The position numbers and the translations under genes were made by a program. The notes under the pieces were generated by a model. It made no database searches. It was not told where the DNA came from and worked only from the letters and a program-made list of their open reading frames with translations. From Aurantiacibacter aquimixticola (lineage in GTDB: Bacteria; Pseudomonadota; Alphaproteobacteria; Sphingomonadales; Sphingomonadaceae): a stretch of 64,000 nucleotides of DNA. Positions 23,561-31,448 of the stretch are shown here, piece by piece. Numbering within the stretch: position 1 is the stretch's first letter; every line of letters begins with the position of its first letter. The stretch lies in the NCBI RefSeq assembly GCF_003605475.1, contig NZ_RAHX01000001.1, positions 1,426,001-1,490,000 on the forward strand, given 5' to 3'.

Positions 23561-25264
23561 TCAGCTGGCGGGCGGCCAGTCCTCGCAACCCTTGGCCGTC
23601 GTCGGGACACCGTGGCGCTTGCGTCTCAGGTCGTAGACAATGGCCTTGCAGATCGACACCGCCATCAGCGCAAGCACCACGGAAAAGGGCAGCGCGCCGA
23701 TGATCATGGTAATGCGGATGGCATCGATGCCGCCGATGATCAGCATGGAGCCAACCACGAAAGCCAGCGCCGCGCCCCAGAAAAGGATGTGCATCCGCCG
23801 CTGCCCTTCATTCTCGCCCGCACCGTTGATGGTGTTGACGATCAGGATCGCGCTATCCGCGCTGGTGATGAGATAGGTCATCAGCAGCACCACGACGAGG
23901 CCGGACACCACCGCCGCAACGCCCGGATCGAGCATGACGGCGAGCGTCGCGAACAGCTGGTCCGATATATTCGCACCCACGATGCTGCCTTGCGCCGCGC
24001 CGGACAGTTCGAGGTCGATCGCCGTGCCGCCGACCAGCGCCATCCAGGTAAAGCACATCAACGACGGCACCAGCATGACACCCAGCACATATTCGCGCAC
24101 CGTCCGTCCGCGCGAGATACGGGCGATGAACATGCCCACGAAGGGCGCGAACGCGATCCACCACGCCCAGTAGAAGACGGACCAGTCGAGCTGCCACTGC
24201 ACCAGCGCATCGCCCGCGTCGCTGCCATCGGTGGAGAACAGGGTCAGCGCAGTCTGCGGCAGGGTGCGCAGGTAATCGAAGATGCCCACCGCCAGAAGCT
24301 CGAAGCCGAGCAGCCCCGATCCCACGACGACAAACAGCACCAGCAAAGCGAAGGACAGCGCCATGTTGAGATTGCTCAGCCACTTGATCCCGCGCCCTAC
24401 GCCGGAAAGCGCACTGAGTGTCGATGCGCCGACGAGCAGCGCCAGCGCCAAGATGATCGCCGCCGGAGTGGCAACGCCTTCGCCATCGAGAAGCCACTCG
24501 CCCAGCCCGAGCCTGTGCAGCCCGGCGACGAATTGCTGCACGCCGAAGCCCATCGTCACAGCAACGCCGAGGACGGTCGCGACGACCGCGACGATATCGA
24601 CCACATGCCCCGCCCCGCCCGACATCGCCCGGCCGAAGATCGGCGCGAGGGCGGAGCGGATGGTGAGCGGCAGGTTCCGGCGATAGGCAACGTAACCGAT
24701 GGCAAGGCCGACCAGTCCATATGTTCCCCACGCTGCCAAGCCCCAGTGAAGGAAAGTGTAGATGTAGGCAGGCCGCACGGCCTCCTGGGTCATTGGCTGG
24801 ACCTGTCCGCGAATGATGTCCGGATTGTTGGCGAAATGTGCGAGCGGCTCGCCCGTGGAATAGGTCAACATGCCTATGCCGATGCCCGCGCCGAACAGCA
24901 TGGCAAACCAGCTGAACCGGCCGAATTCAGGGCGCTCGTCCGCCATTCCGATGCGCAAGCTGCCCGATTGCGGGATGATGGCCAGCACGATGGCGACCAT
25001 CATCACCGCCGCGACGAGATAGACATACCAGCCGCTGAACGTTGAAATGATCGTCGAATTGGCGGCTGTCAGCGTGTCGTTCGCCTGCACCGGGAAGAAG
25101 ATCGCCCACATGATGATCAGCGAGATGATGACCTTCGAGGGGATCGTCACCTGGCGACTGAAGCCGTCGTAAAAGCCGCGATCATGCGTGGCGATGGGCA
25201 GGTCGACCAGCGGCGGCTCGACAGGCGCATTGCCCGGTTCGGTGGCCGGAACCTGCTGTGTCAC
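23561..25264 (-). CDS. BCCT family betaine/choline/carnitine transporter
   Basis: A 567-residue inner-membrane transporter with about 12 hydrophobic helices. Family marks are the glycine-rich GAGIGIGMLTYSTGEP motif in TM3 and the WAWWIAFAPFVGMFIARISRGRTVREYV segment around TM8. Most BCCT members take up quaternary amines using Na+ or H+ for osmoprotection. The MGFGVQQF segment in the substrate region is compatible with trimethylammonium ligands, but substrate choice is inference. It starts at ATG 25264 and is divergent from nadA. Confidence 0.92.
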   Translation of the reverse strand: MTQQVPATEPGNAPVEPPLVDLPIATHDRGFYDGFSRQVTIPSKVIISLIIMWAIFFPVQANDTLTAANSTIISTFSGWYVYLVAAVMMVAIVLAIIPQSGSLRIGMADERPEFGRFSWFAMLFGAGIGIGMLTYSTGEPLAHFANNPDIIRGQVQPMTQEAVRPAYIYTFLHWGLAAWGTYGLVGLAIGYVAYRRNLPLTIRSALAPIFGRAMSGGAGHVVDIVAVVATVLGVAVTMGFGVQQFVAGLHRLGLGEWLLDGEGVATPAAIILALALLVGASTLSALSGVGRGIKWLSNLNMALSFALLVLFVVVGSGLLGFELLAVGIFDYLRTLPQTALTLFSTDGSDAGDALVQWQLDWSVFYWAWWIAFAPFVGMFIARISRGRTVREYVLGVMLVPSLMCFTWMALVGGTAIDLELSGAAQGSIVGANISDQLFATLAVMLDPGVAAVVSGLVVVLLMTYLITSADSAILIVNTINGAGENEGQRRMHILFWGAALAFVVGSMLIIGGIDAIRITMIIGALPFSVVLALMAVSICKAIVYDLRRKRHGVPTTAKGCEDWPPAS

Positions 25265-25449: not shown

Positions 25450-26436
25450 ATGACCGACCAGCCGACCAGCCTTTCAGGGCTAGACCTGCGCGAAGAGATC
25501 GACCGCCTGCGAAAGGAGCGCAACGCCGTGATCCTTGCGCATTACTATCAGAAGCCCGAGCTGCAGGATCTCGCCGATTTCGTCGGTGACTCGCTGGAGC
25601 TTTCGAAAAAGGCGGCGGAAACCGATGCCGACGTCATCGCCTTTTGCGGGGTCAAGTTCATGGCCGACACGGCCAAGATCCTCTCGCCGGAGAAAATCGT
25701 CGTGTTGCCGGACATGGACGCCGGTTGCTCGCTGGAAGATAGCTGCCCGCCGGAAAAATTCGCCGCCTTTCGCGAAAAGCACCCCGATCACATCGCGCTA
25801 ACCTATATTAACTGCTCGACCGAAGTGAAGGCGCTCAGCGACGTGATCGTCACCAGCTCAAGCGCAGAGACGATCCTCTCCCAGATTCCTGAGGACCAGC
25901 CGATCATCTTCGGGCCGGACCGGCACCTTGGCGGTTATCTCAACCGCAAATTCGATCGCGAGATGCTGCTGTGGCCGGGCGTGTGCATCGTGCACGAGGC
26001 GTTCAGCGAGACAGAACTCCTCAAGCTGAAGGCACAGCATCCCGAAGCGCCCATCGCCGCGCATCCCGAATGCCCGCCCCATATCATCGACCATGCCGAT
26101 CATGTCGGCTCGACCAGCTCCATCCTGCAATTCGCCAAGACCTTCGAAGGCGATACGCTGATCGTGGCGACGGAACCGCACATCATCCACCAGATGGAAA
26201 AGGCGCTGCCGGAAAAAACCTTCCTCGGCGCGCCGGGGGCGGACGGCAACTGCAATTGCAATATCTGCCCCTACATGGCGCTCAACAATCTGGAGAAGCT
26301 CTATCTCTGTCTGCGCGATCTGGAACCGCGCATCGAGATCGAGGAAGAGCTGCGGTTGAAAGCCAGGGCGAGCCTCGACAAGATGCTGGAAATGGCGGCA
26401 GGCACGATCGGCAAGGGCGATCTGGGGCGGGTTTGA
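25450..26436 (+). CDS. nadA: Quinolinate synthase
   Basis: Condenses iminoaspartate with dihydroxyacetone phosphate to quinolinate in de novo NAD synthesis, using an oxygen-sensitive 4Fe-4S cluster. The protein is 328 residues. Motifs are AVILAHYYQKPELQDLADF, CGVKFMADTAKIL, the NCSTEVKA and HPECPP cysteine segments, and CNCNICPYMALNNLEKLY near the C terminus. The ATG at 25450 gives the canonical length. nadB and nadC are not adjacent here. The stop overlaps the start of a small secreted protein gene (TGATG). Confidence 0.96.
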   Translation: MTDQPTSLSGLDLREEIDRLRKERNAVILAHYYQKPELQDLADFVGDSLELSKKAAETDADVIAFCGVKFMADTAKILSPEKIVVLPDMDAGCSLEDSCPPEKFAAFREKHPDHIALTYINCSTEVKALSDVIVTSSSAETILSQIPEDQPIIFGPDRHLGGYLNRKFDREMLLWPGVCIVHEAFSETELLKLKAQHPEAPIAAHPECPPHIIDHADHVGSTSSILQFAKTFEGDTLIVATEPHIIHQMEKALPEKTFLGAPGADGNCNCNICPYMALNNLEKLYLCLRDLEPRIEIEEELRLKARASLDKMLEMAAGTIGKGDLGRV

Positions 26437-26858
26437 TGCTGCGATTCCTCCTTGCGACACCCTTATGCGTCCTTGCGGCCCCCGTTGCTGCGCAGGAAGT
26501 GCACTACGAGCCTGGGCAAGTCTGGACTTACGAGACTGCGCCCGGAGACAATGGATCGCTGATTAAAATCCAGGAAATTGAGGCCCTAGAAGGAAAGGAG
26601 CCGATAGAGGTTTTTCATATTTCCATGATCGGCATTCGCTTGGCTGATGGCACCGTTTTACCGGGCATCATGCACATGCCGGTTTCCCGTAGGACGCTTG
26701 ATCACAGCGTCATCGAACTTTCGGATAGCGACGTGCCTTTCCCCGACCACCGCGAAGGGCTCGCGATGTGGAGAGATGCGAATGGCGGTGTTTTCACGAT
26801 CTCGCTGGCCGCTATTGCAGACGTTGTTCGCGAACAGGTCGCCGCCTCGATGAATTGA
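26436..26858 (+). CDS. Small secreted hypothetical protein
   Basis: A 140-residue protein I do not recognise. It has a clear signal peptide (MLRFLLATPLCVLAAPVAAQ) and a mature part rich in beta-type residues, starting EVHYEPGQVWTYETAPGD. The TGATG overlap with nadA fixes its start and implies co-translation. Base composition is slightly more AT-rich than nadA. A periplasmic location is predicted. Confidence 0.75.
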   Translation: MLRFLLATPLCVLAAPVAAQEVHYEPGQVWTYETAPGDNGSLIKIQEIEALEGKEPIEVFHISMIGIRLADGTVLPGIMHMPVSRRTLDHSVIELSDSDVPFPDHREGLAMWRDANGGVFTISLAAIADVVREQVAASMN

Positions 26859-26889: not shown

Positions 26890-27702
26890 CTAACGCTCCA
26901 GCCGCTCCGCCAGCATGTGCGGGACGGTCATCCCGAAAGCCAAGGCCGCCACCACGGTGAGCGGGACAAATCCGGCATTCCAGGCGAGCGCAAGTGCGAC
27001 CGTCCCAGCAAGCGCCAATGCGCTGGTGATCCACTGCGCGCGGAGAACCGCGTCACAGCCGTGCCGCTCGGCCTGTTCGGCCTGAAGCGGAAGTGCGTGG
27101 CCGACGAGAAAGGCAGTGCCGACGGCAAGGACCGGGTGCAAGAATGCGACGGCCAGCGCCGACACGATCAGCGCCGGGTCTCGCGGCTGGCGGAGTAGCT
27201 GCGCGGCGGCGAGCGCCAGTCCGGCGAGTCCGATGGTGGCGACACCGTAGAGCCAGATGTCTGGTGGAGCGAAGCCGAGGATCGCAGCGAACACGGCGGC
27301 GGTCTCCTCGAAGCGCAGCGCCATGCTGCCGCCGATCACGAGTGCGGCATAGGCCCAACCGCGCAGCCAGTCGCCATGCAGGGAGCGGGCGAAATGCCAG
27401 AGCGACAGGCCGAGAAAGAGCGTGAGGCCGGCCAGCGGCAGCATCACGAAGACGGCGGCAACGGCCAGTCCGGCGACGATATAGGCCGCCGCCTGCCATA
27501 TGCCGAAAGGGCGGATCGTGCCGTCCTGCTCGTCCCCCGCACCGTGTGCCGTTCCGATCAGGAAGAATATGAGACCGAGCACGACTGCGATGCTCGTGCC
27601 GGAGAGTTGCGCAACTCCGGCAACCGCCAGCACCACAAACGGAAGGGCGGCCCGCACGCCGTGTGCGGACCGCCCTTCATTGGCTGCCGGGGCAGCCGCC
27701 AT
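26890..27702 (-). CDS. blh: Beta-carotene 15,15'-dioxygenase (Brp/Blh family)
   Basis: Integral membrane enzyme of 270 residues that cleaves beta-carotene into two retinals, providing chromophore for the adjacent rhodopsin. Family histidines are visible in GTAHGAGDE, LWHFARSLHGDW, AFLHPVLAVGTAFLVGHALP and TVPHMLAERLE, within about seven hydrophobic helices. The ATG at 27702 lies 1 bp after the rhodopsin stop, so the two genes form an operon. The first 25 codons contain a long inverted repeat (27642-27678) that may attenuate expression. Carotenoid synthesis genes are not in the window. Confidence 0.92.
   Translation of the reverse strand: MAAAPAANEGRSAHGVRAALPFVVLAVAGVAQLSGTSIAVVLGLIFFLIGTAHGAGDEQDGTIRPFGIWQAAAYIVAGLAVAAVFVMLPLAGLTLFLGLSLWHFARSLHGDWLRGWAYAALVIGGSMALRFEETAAVFAAILGFAPPDIWLYGVATIGLAGLALAAAQLLRQPRDPALIVSALAVAFLHPVLAVGTAFLVGHALPLQAEQAERHGCDAVLRAQWITSALALAGTVALALAWNAGFVPLTVVAALAFGMTVPHMLAERLER
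27642..27678 (-). promoter_or_regulatory. Long hairpin inside the 5' coding end of blh
   Basis: GAAGGGCGG at 27642-27650 pairs with CCGCCCTTC at 27670-27678. After one mismatch the stem continues with CCGCAC pairing with GTGCGG, closing on a 5-nt loop. On the blh message it lies about 24-60 nt downstream of the blh start codon, right behind the rhodopsin gene. There is no U tract, so it looks like an attenuator, translational brake or 3'-end stabiliser of the rhodopsin message rather than a full terminator. Confidence 0.65.
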
Positions 27703-27703
27703 A

Positions 27704-28600
27704 TCAGTCGCCGCGCTGCGAGGCGACCTTGGCGCCCAGCGGGCTGATCTCGAGCGCCTCTGCCGCAGGCGCGTAGCCTTCCAGCGCACTGCGACGCAGG
27801 ACGTATCGCGACAGGATGATACCATAGACCAGCTTGGTCGAGATATCGGCGATGGAGAACAGCAGCTGACGAACCACCACAATGTCTCCGGTGTAGCCAA
27901 GTTGCGGGAGCGCATAGGCGATGGGATACAGGCCCCAGGTGGCCAGGAAGTACCACCAGATGTTCTTCGGCCATGCCGAGAGCTCGCTCGGGCTGGTCTT
28001 GATCGCGTAAGAGATCACGCCGCGCACTTCGACGATCAGCCACACGAAGAACACGGTGGAGATCACGCCCCAAAGGTTCAGGCGAGAGAAATCGCCGGTC
28101 TCACCGAATTGGCCGTAGAGGCCGGTCCAGATCATCAGCACGCCCGGAATGATCATGCGGATAGAGCGTTTGTGCAGGTCCGGTCGGGGCAGGGCGAAGG
28201 CAATGGCGAGCTGCGTCAGCAGGATGGGGACCGTAATGGTCCAGTTGCCGTAGCGGAACGCGTTGGTAAAGGTCTGGCCCTCCGCCATCGGCAGATAGAA
28301 CGAGCCGTTGAAGGCGTATGTCGCATCCCAGATCTGGAATTCGCGCATCAGGCTGAGACCCGCACTCGCCATGACCAGCGCCGACATGATCGGCACGATG
28401 CGGTAGCGCGGCGCAAGCTGGAAGCTCATCATGATGAAATAGAGAATGAAGGCGAAATGCGCGCCATAGCTGACCATCAGGATCAGCGAACCGGTAGTAT
28501 ACTGACCGGACGTGAGCGGCACGAGATTTTCGATACTGCCCGTCAGCCTACCGATTTCGGCGATGGCGGGGGCGATTTCTGGAGCCTGGGGTAGTGTCAT
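27704..28600 (-). CDS. Microbial rhodopsin with NTQ motif, predicted light-driven chloride pump
   Basis: A seven-helix retinal protein of 298 residues. The retinal Lys is K256 in helix G (ADISTKLVYG). Helix C reads RYGNWTITVPILLTQ, giving N119, T123 and Q130 at the three positions that are D-T-E in proteorhodopsin and N-D-Q in sodium pumps. N-T-Q is the signature of bacterial inward chloride pumps first described in Nonlabens and Fulvimarina. L127, at the proteorhodopsin spectral-tuning position, predicts green absorption. The ATG at 28600 is used; an open frame upstream is not protein-like. It is followed 1 bp later by blh. Confidence 0.93.
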   Translation of the reverse strand: MTLPQAPEIAPAIAEIGRLTGSIENLVPLTSGQYTTGSLILMVSYGAHFAFILYFIMMSFQLAPRYRIVPIMSALVMASAGLSLMREFQIWDATYAFNGSFYLPMAEGQTFTNAFRYGNWTITVPILLTQLAIAFALPRPDLHKRSIRMIIPGVLMIWTGLYGQFGETGDFSRLNLWGVISTVFFVWLIVEVRGVISYAIKTSPSELSAWPKNIWWYFLATWGLYPIAYALPQLGYTGDIVVVRQLLFSIADISTKLVYGIILSRYVLRRSALEGYAPAAEALEISPLGAKVASQRGD

Positions 28601-28806
28601 ATTTGACGCCTCGAACCCGACCGTATCGACAGCGCGGGCCCTGCCCTCGCGCCGCCCTCCGCCGACGGTCGAAACCGGCAGGAAAGCTGGCAACTAAAGT
28701 CCGCCTCGCGGGTTAAGGTTCCCGACATGACCATATTTCTGTTTCTCTGCTGGCGCCGATAACGCATGAAATTGCGTGACTTGCGGCTATCAATCCGGTG
28801 CACGGG

Positions 28807-30117
28807 ATGAACCTGCTGCGCCCTCTCGACCGTGCGAATAGCTGGATCTGGCACAAGCTGATCGCGAATTACTGGTCCGCACCGGCGACCACGGTCGCGC
28901 TCGCCCCCCTGCTGGCCTTCGCAATCCTCTATCTCGATCGCAATGGCGGCACCGCCTGGATGATAGAACACGGGCTGCAGACCGTTTCCAGCGCGGAGAC
29001 GGCGCGCGATTTCGCCGCCATCGTAGCCAGCATCAATGCCGCTTTCCTGACGTTGTACTTCTCGATCACGCTGATCGTGTTGACGATGGCGGCGGGGACG
29101 CTGGGCGTACGCCTGATCGACCGCTGGCTGGACAAGCGCATCGTCAAGATTTCGCTGTGCACATTGTGTTTCAGCTTCGTGGTCGCGCTTATCGCAATGC
29201 TTGCCATCGATCCGAGCGAGGATCTCACGCGTGTGCCGCTCATCCTGATCGGGCTGGTGCTCTTAATGCAGCTGATCGCGCTCGGCCTGCTGGCGATCTC
29301 ACTGCACGATCTTGGCCGGACGATGTTCGTCGACACGTCGATCCACGCCGTCGGGCGCGATGCGAAGGTTCGCCCGGCGGAACTGGAAGTCCGCGATCCC
29401 CACAAGGGGCCCTGGGCAGCGGAACTGCGCGCCGACAGGACCGGTTATGTCGAAGGCCTGGAAGTCGACCGCCTCGTCCGCAAGCTCGAAGATCACGAGG
29501 GCACAATCCGCATTTGCGTCGCGCCGGGTCAGCATGTGCTCGAAGGCGAAATCCTGATCCAGTTCGAAAAGGAGCCGGACAATATTCCCGACCTGCAGGC
29601 CGGTATTCCGGTGGGCGCCATTCGCAGCGACAATCAGGGCGCCGTGTTCCGCATTCGGCTGCTGGTCGAAATCGGCGCGCGCGCTCTCTCACCTGCTATC
29701 AACGATTTCTACACGGCGATCACCTGCGCGGACAAGCTGGTCGACGCCATGCTCGGCCAGACGAAGAATTGGGTGGATGCGGGCAAGGTCGGCTGCGCGA
29801 AACAGCATCCGCGCTTCGAATTGCCGGGGCAGGATTTTCGATCGCTGTTCGAAGATCCAATGCACGCCTTCCGGCAAGCAGCCTGCACCTACCCCTCCGT
29901 CACCATCCGCATGATCCAGAATTATTCGCGCGTCCGGATTTATGCGCAAAAGCATGATCTTTCGGGCGAGCTGTCCGATTTTCTCTGCCAGCTTGCCAAG
30001 GAGCTGCGCGATCATGCTATCTCGGTCACCGGTTTCGAGGGAGACCGCAACGATATCGAAGAGGCCTTCAATCATGGCTTCGAGGATGAGAACTTTCGCA
30101 AGGGCATGGCGGCATGA
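28807..30117 (+). CDS. DUF2254 membrane protein, first of tandem pair
   Basis: A 436-residue membrane protein with four N-terminal transmembrane helices (about residues 20-170) and a large soluble C-terminal region. The DUF2254 signature ARALSPAINDFYTAITCADKL is present near residue 290. Function is unknown. The ATG at 28807 is preferred over a GTG at 28798. It is divergent from the rhodopsin with a gap of about 200 bp and is coupled by ATGA overlap to a paralogue. Confidence 0.85.
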   Translation: MNLLRPLDRANSWIWHKLIANYWSAPATTVALAPLLAFAILYLDRNGGTAWMIEHGLQTVSSAETARDFAAIVASINAAFLTLYFSITLIVLTMAAGTLGVRLIDRWLDKRIVKISLCTLCFSFVVALIAMLAIDPSEDLTRVPLILIGLVLLMQLIALGLLAISLHDLGRTMFVDTSIHAVGRDAKVRPAELEVRDPHKGPWAAELRADRTGYVEGLEVDRLVRKLEDHEGTIRICVAPGQHVLEGEILIQFEKEPDNIPDLQAGIPVGAIRSDNQGAVFRIRLLVEIGARALSPAINDFYTAITCADKLVDAMLGQTKNWVDAGKVGCAKQHPRFELPGQDFRSLFEDPMHAFRQAACTYPSVTIRMIQNYSRVRIYAQKHDLSGELSDFLCQLAKELRDHAISVTGFEGDRNDIEEAFNHGFEDENFRKGMAA

Positions 30118-31448
30118 CAGCAGAAATCCGCTTTTTCTGGGCACGGCTGAATGCCAATTACTGGTTCTATCCGGCCGTGTTCTCGATCTTCGCGGCGTTT
30201 CTCGCGTTTGCGATGATCTACCTCGATCGCAGCGGCGCCGCGTCCTTACTCAATGACGTGTCCTGGCTGATGCCGTCACGCCCGACCGGCGCATCCAACC
30301 TGCTGACCGTCATGGCGGGGAGCATGATCGGCACGGCGGCCACCGTTTTCTCGATCACCATTGCGGCCGTCGCCTATGCCAGTGGCAATTACGGTCCCCG
30401 CCTGCTTACCAATTTCATGGAAGACCGCGGCAACCAGCTCAGCCTTGCGACCTTCATCGGCAGCTTCGTCTATGCCCTGATCGTGCTGCGCGCCGTGCGT
30501 ACGGAGGATGAGACGTCTGCCGTCGGGGTGGCAACCGCGCTGCCCGGCTTCGCACCGCAATTGTCGCTGCTCGTGGCCTATGCGCTTCTCGCGATCTGCG
30601 TCGCGGTGCTGGTGTTCTTCCTCAATCACATCCCTTCCTCGATCCGCATCAATATGGTGCTCGAAGGAATCGGACGGCGTCTGCTCGACGCGATCAGGGA
30701 GATGTACCCGGTCGAAGACGAACTCGGCGACGCGCGCGAGGGGATCGACGGCGCAGAGCTGACAGCCTGGGGCACCGGCTACATCCAGATGATCGATTAC
30801 GAGGACATGGTCGAGCTGGCACGCAAGCATGATGCCACGTTTTCGCTCATCGTGCGCACCGGCGATTTTGTTCACCGCGATCTGCCGCTCATGCGGATCG
30901 ACGGCGTGGAGCCGAAAGAGATCGAGGAAGAAATTCGCGAGTGTTTTACATTGGGCGCAACGCGCACGCCAGAGCAGGATCCGCAATTCCTGATGGACGA
31001 ACTGGTCGAAATCGGGTTGCGCGCGCTTTCCCCCGGCATCAACGACCCCTTCACTGCCATCACGGCCCTGCATTGGTTGGGTGCCTCTACAGCCGAGATC
31101 GGCCGCCGCGATCTGCGCCGGGATATCTGCCCGGGCGACGATAGCGAGGAGGAATGCCCCGTCATTCCTCGCGCCGACGATTTCGACCATTATGTGGAAC
31201 GCGGCTTCGGCTCCATTCGCAGCGGCGTCGCGACCAGTTCGACGGCGTCACAGATCATGTTCGAATCGCTGGAAAATGCCGCCATTCCGATCCAGCACTC
31301 GAAGCGCTGCAAATCGCTCGAGAACGAGGCCGAATTGCTGATGAAGCAGGCGCGGACGGCTCTGAAAGGACCGGACCTCGAAAAGGTCGAGGAGCGCTAC
31401 AAACTCTTCAAGGAGCGCCTGAGCGCATCTCACGTGCGCGCGGCCTGA
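30114..31448 (+). CDS. DUF2254 membrane protein, second of tandem pair
   Basis: A 444-residue paralogue of the preceding protein, with the same layout of four transmembrane helices followed by a soluble region, and the motif LRALSPGINDPFTAITALHWLG. The ATGA overlap shows that the two are made together and may form a hetero-oligomer. The 3' end overlaps the convergent DMT transporter gene by 19 bp. Function unknown. Confidence 0.87.
   Translation: MTAEIRFFWARLNANYWFYPAVFSIFAAFLAFAMIYLDRSGAASLLNDVSWLMPSRPTGASNLLTVMAGSMIGTAATVFSITIAAVAYASGNYGPRLLTNFMEDRGNQLSLATFIGSFVYALIVLRAVRTEDETSAVGVATALPGFAPQLSLLVAYALLAICVAVLVFFLNHIPSSIRINMVLEGIGRRLLDAIREMYPVEDELGDAREGIDGAELTAWGTGYIQMIDYEDMVELARKHDATFSLIVRTGDFVHRDLPLMRIDGVEPKEIEEEIRECFTLGATRTPEQDPQFLMDELVEIGLRALSPGINDPFTAITALHWLGASTAEIGRRDLRRDICPGDDSEEECPVIPRADDFDHYVERGFGSIRSGVATSSTASQIMFESLENAAIPIQHSKRCKSLENEAELLMKQARTALKGPDLEKVEERYKLFKERLSASHVRAA

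Follow-up and report, generated by a model that had tools for sequence, protein, structure and literature searches.

The rhodopsin gene at 27704..28600 of the window, by which we mean the whole 64,000-nucleotide stretch of Aurantiacibacter aquimixticola DNA that was analysed, very probably codes for a chloride pump, driven by light and directed inward, that belongs to the bacterial NTQ-rhodopsin (ClR) family and is of the FR type, named for the rhodopsin of Fulvimarina pelagi. Inward pumping of Cl- is predicted because the protein carries the NTQ motif, falls in the FR clade, is 74% identical to the Fulvimarina protein and keeps the residues of the chloride site of NmClR. The window pump is in this respect one more ortholog, an ordinary member of a known family of NTQ chloride pumps. 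The part of the locus most worth following is the gene next to it, DUF2254a, which as a conserved companion of FR-type pumps offers a concrete handle. The genes run in the order nadA, small ORF, blh and rhodopsin, followed divergently by DUF2254a, DUF2254b and an EamA transporter gene, and the features to which we refer are these:

25450..26436, plus strand: nadA, flank of the conserved locus, start putative (NCBIfam NF006878 and TIGR00550; synteny)
26433-26855: small ORF with no Pfam match
26890..27702, minus strand: blh, beta-carotene 15,15'-dioxygenase (Brp/Blh family), 270 aa (Pfam BCD, conserved His)
27704..28600, minus strand: NTQ rhodopsin (ClR, FR type), 298 aa (translation, Pfam PF01036, trees, residue map)
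27833..27835, minus strand: codon of K256, the retinal Schiff-base lysine, equivalent to K235 of NmClR (alignment, residue map)
28211..28213, minus strand: codon of Q130, third NTQ position, equivalent to Q109 of NmClR (residue map; PMC4999514)
28232..28234, minus strand: codon of T123, second NTQ position, equivalent to the Cl- ligand T102 of NmClR (residue map; role according to PMC4999514)
28244..28246, minus strand: codon of N119, first NTQ position, equivalent to the Cl- ligand N98 of NmClR (residue map; role according to PMC4999514)
28601..28797, no strand: intergenic region separating rhodopsin and DUF2254a, which are divergent (coordinates)
28798..30117, plus strand: DUF2254a, predicted membrane protein, conserved divergent neighbour of blh-linked NTQ genes (PF10011, neighbourhood, genus profile)
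30114..31448, plus strand: DUF2254b, a paralogue found in genomes of the genus with or without an NTQ rhodopsin (PF10011, genus search)

The first-pass annotation had placed the rhodopsin gene exactly and had left out its strand, which is the minus strand: the ATG start codon is at 28600 and the TGA stop codon at 27706-27704. The overlapping frame on the plus strand was checked and showed nothing gene-like. Against a cut-off of 24.6, the protein scores 102.2 bits with Pfam PF01036 (Bac_rhodopsin). Comparison with Aurantiacibacter sediminis gives a dN of 0.11 and a dS of 1.11, and the gene is hence under constraint; this low dN/dS, together with the relatives of 59-84% identity found at 29 loci, means that the reading frame is not a product of chance. 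These loci were found by scanning the genome collection with peptide patterns, a search that may pass over close copies of the genome from which the window comes. The assignment of N119, T123, Q130 and K256 in the annotation was also correct, and two alignments, of 10 and 22 sequences, show no variation at these four residues; L071 was omitted from one of them owing to a stop inside its matched stretch.

The motif residues place Asn, Thr and Gln at BR positions 85, 89 and 96, as in ClR. The Asp at BR position 89 that marks NDQ rhodopsins is replaced by T123, and the carboxylates at BR positions 85 and 96 that mark DTE proton pumps are replaced by N119 and Q130. K256, D252 and R116 correspond to K235, D231 and R95 of NmClR, so that the retinal lysine and the Asp-Arg pair are both present. 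The chloride site of NmClR is known from crystals and mutants, and PMC4999514 describes Cl- as being held there by the Schiff base, N98 and T102. According to the same source most changes at N98 and T102 reduce pumping by at least half (T102N retains about 70%), and pumping is impaired by N92A, S91E, Q143E and K2E and unimpaired by P45A and K46A. We compared the positions named in that paper, with K2 falling outside the mapped segment and its Thr242 unmatched by numbering. The residue map shows N98, T102, Q109, N92, R95, Q143, D231, K235 and Q224 to be identical in the window protein, as are W201, W72, Y83, A44, P45 and S54 (the counterparts of N92, Q143 and P45 being N113, Q164 and P64). The substitutions are S91 to T112, K46 to R65, T228 to S249, F15 to Y34, A50 to V69 and S234 to T255. 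The three aromatic residues described as the '3 omega' motif of ClR (PMC4999514, PMC9728251), which in NmClR are F15, W72 and Y83, correspond to Y34, W91 and Y102 and are thus all aromatic here as well. In NmClR numbering, N98, T102, Q109, N92, R95, Q143, D231 and K235 are unchanged in all 43 of the other NTQ rows tabulated (42 distinct).

By alignment with NmClR, Cl- would be bound near the protonated retinal Schiff base at K256, where N119 and T123 would hold it; the remaining carboxylate would be D252, with R116 close by. Green light would isomerise the retinal and Cl- would then be driven to the cytoplasmic side; no proton cycle is expected, because Q130 occupies the position of the donor in proton pumps. 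Leucine at the colour-tuning site of rhodopsins goes with green absorption. Such absorption is expected here, given L127 at this site (its position taken from PMC4831467) and the 518 nm absorption reported for the relative SpClR (PMC7979833). It is also possible that the protein could accommodate a carotenoid antenna. The helix-E glycine G178, which has the same number as in GR by chance, is kept in 43 NTQ rows (42 distinct), 7 NDQ rows and 8 DTE rows, and of the other antenna-site residues T182, F185, P226 and I227 match GR while GR T179 is V179 here. In literature from 2019 onwards we found no report that deals with chloride together with the antenna and fenestration of a rhodopsin.

NmClR, an NTQ chloride pump, is the top hit among solved structures (6ab9, E 4.4e-50), in a near-tie with the NDQ sodium pump ErNaR (8qle, E 7.4e-50); the next, named as xanthorhodopsin or sodium pumping rhodopsin, begin at E 2e-36. 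The Fulvimarina pelagi rhodopsin (L085) is the only PF01036 match of its genome, and PMC4585134 describes FR as a Cl- pump with a Cl--dependent colour. Identities of 63-65% were found with the genes of Citromicrobium JLT1363 (L088, the source of CsClR), C. bathyomarinum IOP_28 (L093) and Novosphingopyxis (Sphingopyxis) baekryungensis (L091, the source of SpClR). The NTQ genes of Citromicrobium and Fulvimarina had already been noted in PMC4831467, and PMC5118547 reports that PoClR of Parvularcula behaves as an inward Cl- pump in E. coli. In a maximum-likelihood tree of 46 rows the window gene groups with those of A. sediminis and G285 (90/92), within a clade of alphaproteobacterial NTQ genes (99/98) to which the Fulvimarina, SpClR, CsClR and C. 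bathyomarinum genes also belong. This is the tree placement that had been proposed as a check, and the grouping with FR is firm; the join to NmClR, as sister to the clade, is weak (80/57), and the program warned of long branches. An earlier tree of 48 rows, which had eight more NTQ rows and lacked the six sequences added from the order of Algimonas, instead grouped NmClR with NDQ proteins (87/73), and NmClR is long-branched in both. The NTQ motif may have arisen once or more than once independently, the latter being how the 48-row tree might be read. As the join of NmClR with the alphaproteobacterial NTQ clade is weak and shifts between trees, any reasoning from the structure of NmClR has to bridge a deep split.

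The same relatives bear on whether the protein could instead pump another ion, with H+ or Na+ going outward despite the NTQ motif. ErNaR, its closest solved relative outside the NTQ proteins, is nearly as close as NmClR by E-value, and this would be in keeping with such a function. However, T replaces ErNaR D105 and S83 replaces ErNaR E64, N and Q stand at the proton acceptor and donor sites, N, T and Q are kept in all 43 NTQ rows (42 distinct), and the clade includes the Fulvimarina gene, all of which makes the transport of another ion very improbable. Slightly less probable again is a photosensory or non-transporting role, since the rhodopsin sits in a clade with pumps and its neighbours (nadA, blh, two DUF2254 genes, a BCCT and an EamA transporter, and one small ORF without a Pfam match) include no transducer. 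Inward chloride pumping is the reading that we strongly favour.

Searched at 1e-33 against 385 genomes of the class sampled outside the family, the window rhodopsin gave one match, to its own genome, and 21 pattern matches on viral contigs included no relative of it. A search of plasmids returned two distant rhodopsins of 30% identity. On one plasmid, p29334-1 of Polymorphobacter sp. (842 kb, L153), a distant rhodopsin is paired with a Brp/Blh gene, with an IS701 transposase within 3 kb.

The genome was also correctly said to have blh. Its Pfam BCD match (42.3 bits, cut-off 28) starts with an ATG at 27702, 1 bp after the rhodopsin stop codon, and ends at 26890, and the two genes, being co-directional and nearly abutting, may form an operon. 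The protein scores 62.4 bits with NCBIfam TIGR03753, below the cut-off of 95.25; H53, H103, H202 and H262 are identical in 30 of 30 distinct copies. This is the single BCD match in the genome, which also has a CrtY lycopene beta-cyclase (486.9 bits, cut-off 215.2). By profile, no blh lies beside the genome's DTE (L001) or NDQ (L002) gene, and the retinal made by the window enzyme would serve these rhodopsins too, giving one source for three. Rhodopsin genes of other types also have blh beside them: when all loci were searched with a purpose-built profile, it adjoins 33 of the 47 distinct NTQ loci (31 by tblastn, with G332 and Hellea added by Pfam), 19 of 23 DTE loci, 2 of 7 NDQ loci and 3 of 17 other rhodopsin loci. 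An NDQ rhodopsin in an Algimonas genome (L128) has a divergent BCD (blh) gene upstream (Pfam 117.5 bits).

The presence of the other two rhodopsins qualifies an earlier claim. Chloride uptake rather than proton export had been proposed, and for this protein the motif, clade and site residues support it; it cannot be said of the organism as a whole, since its genome (2.55 Mb, 2 contigs, completeness 100) further encodes a DTE rhodopsin, predicted to pump H+, and an NDQ rhodopsin, predicted to pump Na+. The latter has ErNaR as its best solved relative (E 9.8e-122) and carries the ErNaR-type helix-B glutamate (ALEIGQ). No match to a photosynthetic reaction centre was found in the genome. PF01036 matches occur in 58 of 397 genomes of the family, NDQ in two of them (G000 and G285) and the full DTE, NDQ and NTQ set in one, G000, which is the window's genome; these counts apply to places where the motif could be read, with five places unclassified, L099/L140 yielding no readable motif and PF01036 matches partial or below cut-off in G010, G109, G137 and G192. 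As a query at 1e-33, the NDQ protein matched its own genome alone (1 of 398 genomes of the phylum sampled outside the family), and the Algimonas NDQ protein at 1e-30 matched 4 of 299 genomes of its order. The same trio of rhodopsins is known in Nonlabens (PMC4831467, PMC9728251), and Parvularcula oceani is described as having NDQ, NTQ and xenorhodopsin types (PMC5118547); in those portions of the open-licence literature that were searched we found no report of the DTE, NDQ and NTQ trio in Erythrobacter, Aurantiacibacter or the Sphingomonadales. A single alphaproteobacterium of 2.55 Mb would thus have pumps for H+, Na+ and Cl-, and its only detected gene for making retinal abuts the chloride pump.

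DUF2254a and DUF2254b match PF10011 with 200.9 and 357.6 bits (cut-off 28.8) and fall in separate clades (100/100), in a tree with long branches for Hellea and G332 and a program warning on L095. The first 175 residues of DUF2254a include four or five hydrophobic segments, and about 260 residues of soluble appearance follow. A profile search of solved structures gave two weak apolipoprotein matches (E 0.19 and 0.72) and no credible relative. PMC11184937 mentions DUF2254 for predicted knots and the term also occurs in PMC12440251; the literature passages searched give no function for it. Papers found under the accession mostly concern Plasmodium, judging from their titles, and probably matched through gene names spelled alike. 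Between the window and A. sediminis, DUF2254a is 53% identical and ClR 84%. The stretch at 28601..28797 is likely to be a control region shared by the rhodopsin and DUF2254a genes; EcfG-like and PpsR-like patterns were not found in the window, and 28 other loci gave one each in L094 and L085. In L080 (5086-5835) and L086 (4569-5799) the DUF2254a match is split in two pieces, possibly through broken genes or assembly errors. On the far side of nadA the window has a BCCT (betaine/choline) transporter gene (23561-25264, minus strand), whose homologues are 35-37% identical near five CsClR-type loci and 81% identical in A. sediminis; its place near a chloride pump might possibly reflect a link with osmoregulation.

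It is conceivable, although we hold this tentatively, that DUF2254a is a dedicated partner of FR-type pumps, a membrane protein and perhaps a channel, exchanger or regulator through which light-driven Cl- uptake is used or controlled. The competing view, which concerns this partnership and not the chloride pump itself, is that DUF2254a is a neighbour by position only, through inherited gene order, and we give it about an even chance. Seventy-seven NTQ rows were reduced to 47 distinct ones by identical core sequence, with flanks of 6 kb for the named NTQ loci and mostly 1.5 kb for the remaining NTQ loci and the controls. DUF2254a adjoins 29 of the 33 blh-linked NTQ genes. The four types with blh and no DUF2254 (L048, L063/L091 of SpClR, L085 of FR, and L069, which has only 256 bp upstream) favour mere position, as do the 14 NTQ types without blh, none of which has type a (10 have DUF2254b only and four, L064/L094, L096/L150, L151 and L152, have neither). 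On the other hand DUF2254a is not simply a companion of blh: by profile no DUF2254 gene lies beside any of the other rhodopsins (47 distinct loci: 23 DTE, 11 DTG, 7 NDQ and 6 others), 24 of which have blh, and the tblastn count was 0 of 46.

Gene order within the genus also speaks for both views. In favour of partnership, DUF2254a was found in 6 of 40 genomes of the genus, namely all five with an NTQ rhodopsin and G251 (5/5 against 1/35; Fisher 9e-6, uncorrected for kinship; a G407 fragment of 170 bits covering half of the profile was left without a type). G251 (L184) has nadA, DUF2254a and DUF2254b in succession with neither rhodopsin nor blh, and retention of DUF2254a there is what a positional neighbour could show; ClR and blh may have been lost, leaving a possible relic, or DUF2254a may be able to exist alone. 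Of three fetched genus genomes lacking the NTQ rhodopsin, two (L185, L187) have nadA beside DUF2254b, which again suggests an inherited arrangement, and in the third (L186) DUF2254b is next to EamA and the stretch contains no nadA. Against this, the DUF2254a clade is distinct from DUF2254b, and DUF2254a accompanies ClR and blh where nadA is absent within about 6 kb (Sphingomonas baiyangensis, Citromicrobium NP26 and an Erythrobacter MAG; L075, L079 and L084), in G332, and in Hellea, which belongs to a different family. The second NTQ gene of NP26 is of the CsClR type and lies between nadA and DUF2254b (L090). A functional tie between DUF2254a and the pump is a new and unproven proposal. If it is correct, DUF2254a, ClR and blh would constitute a portable three-gene unit, and this branch of DUF2254 would have its first functional lead.

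Among the closest known systems, FR of F. pelagi is similar in sharing the NTQ motif, the clade and a blh directly downstream; unlike the window its locus has no DUF2254 within about 6 kb, and the species belongs to the Aurantimonadaceae. SpClR, CsClR and the C. bathyomarinum protein share the motif and the clade, and the last two differ in lying between nadA and DUF2254b with neither blh nor DUF2254a, whereas the SpClR locus has blh and, over about 6 kb, lacks DUF2254. NmClR (NM-R3 of Nonlabens marinus; 6ab9, 5fjg, 5b2n) resembles the window protein in the motif, in N98, T102, K235, D231 and R95, and in the cavity residues N92 and Q143. It has V, S and Q where the window protein has G118, R86 and E87, residues that are found in 40, 34 and 42 of 43 alphaproteobacterial NTQ rows, respectively. 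ErNaR of Erythrobacter sp. HL-111, an NDQ protein, is likewise close in sequence to the window rhodopsin, but has D in the motif where this has T, and E64 where this has S83.
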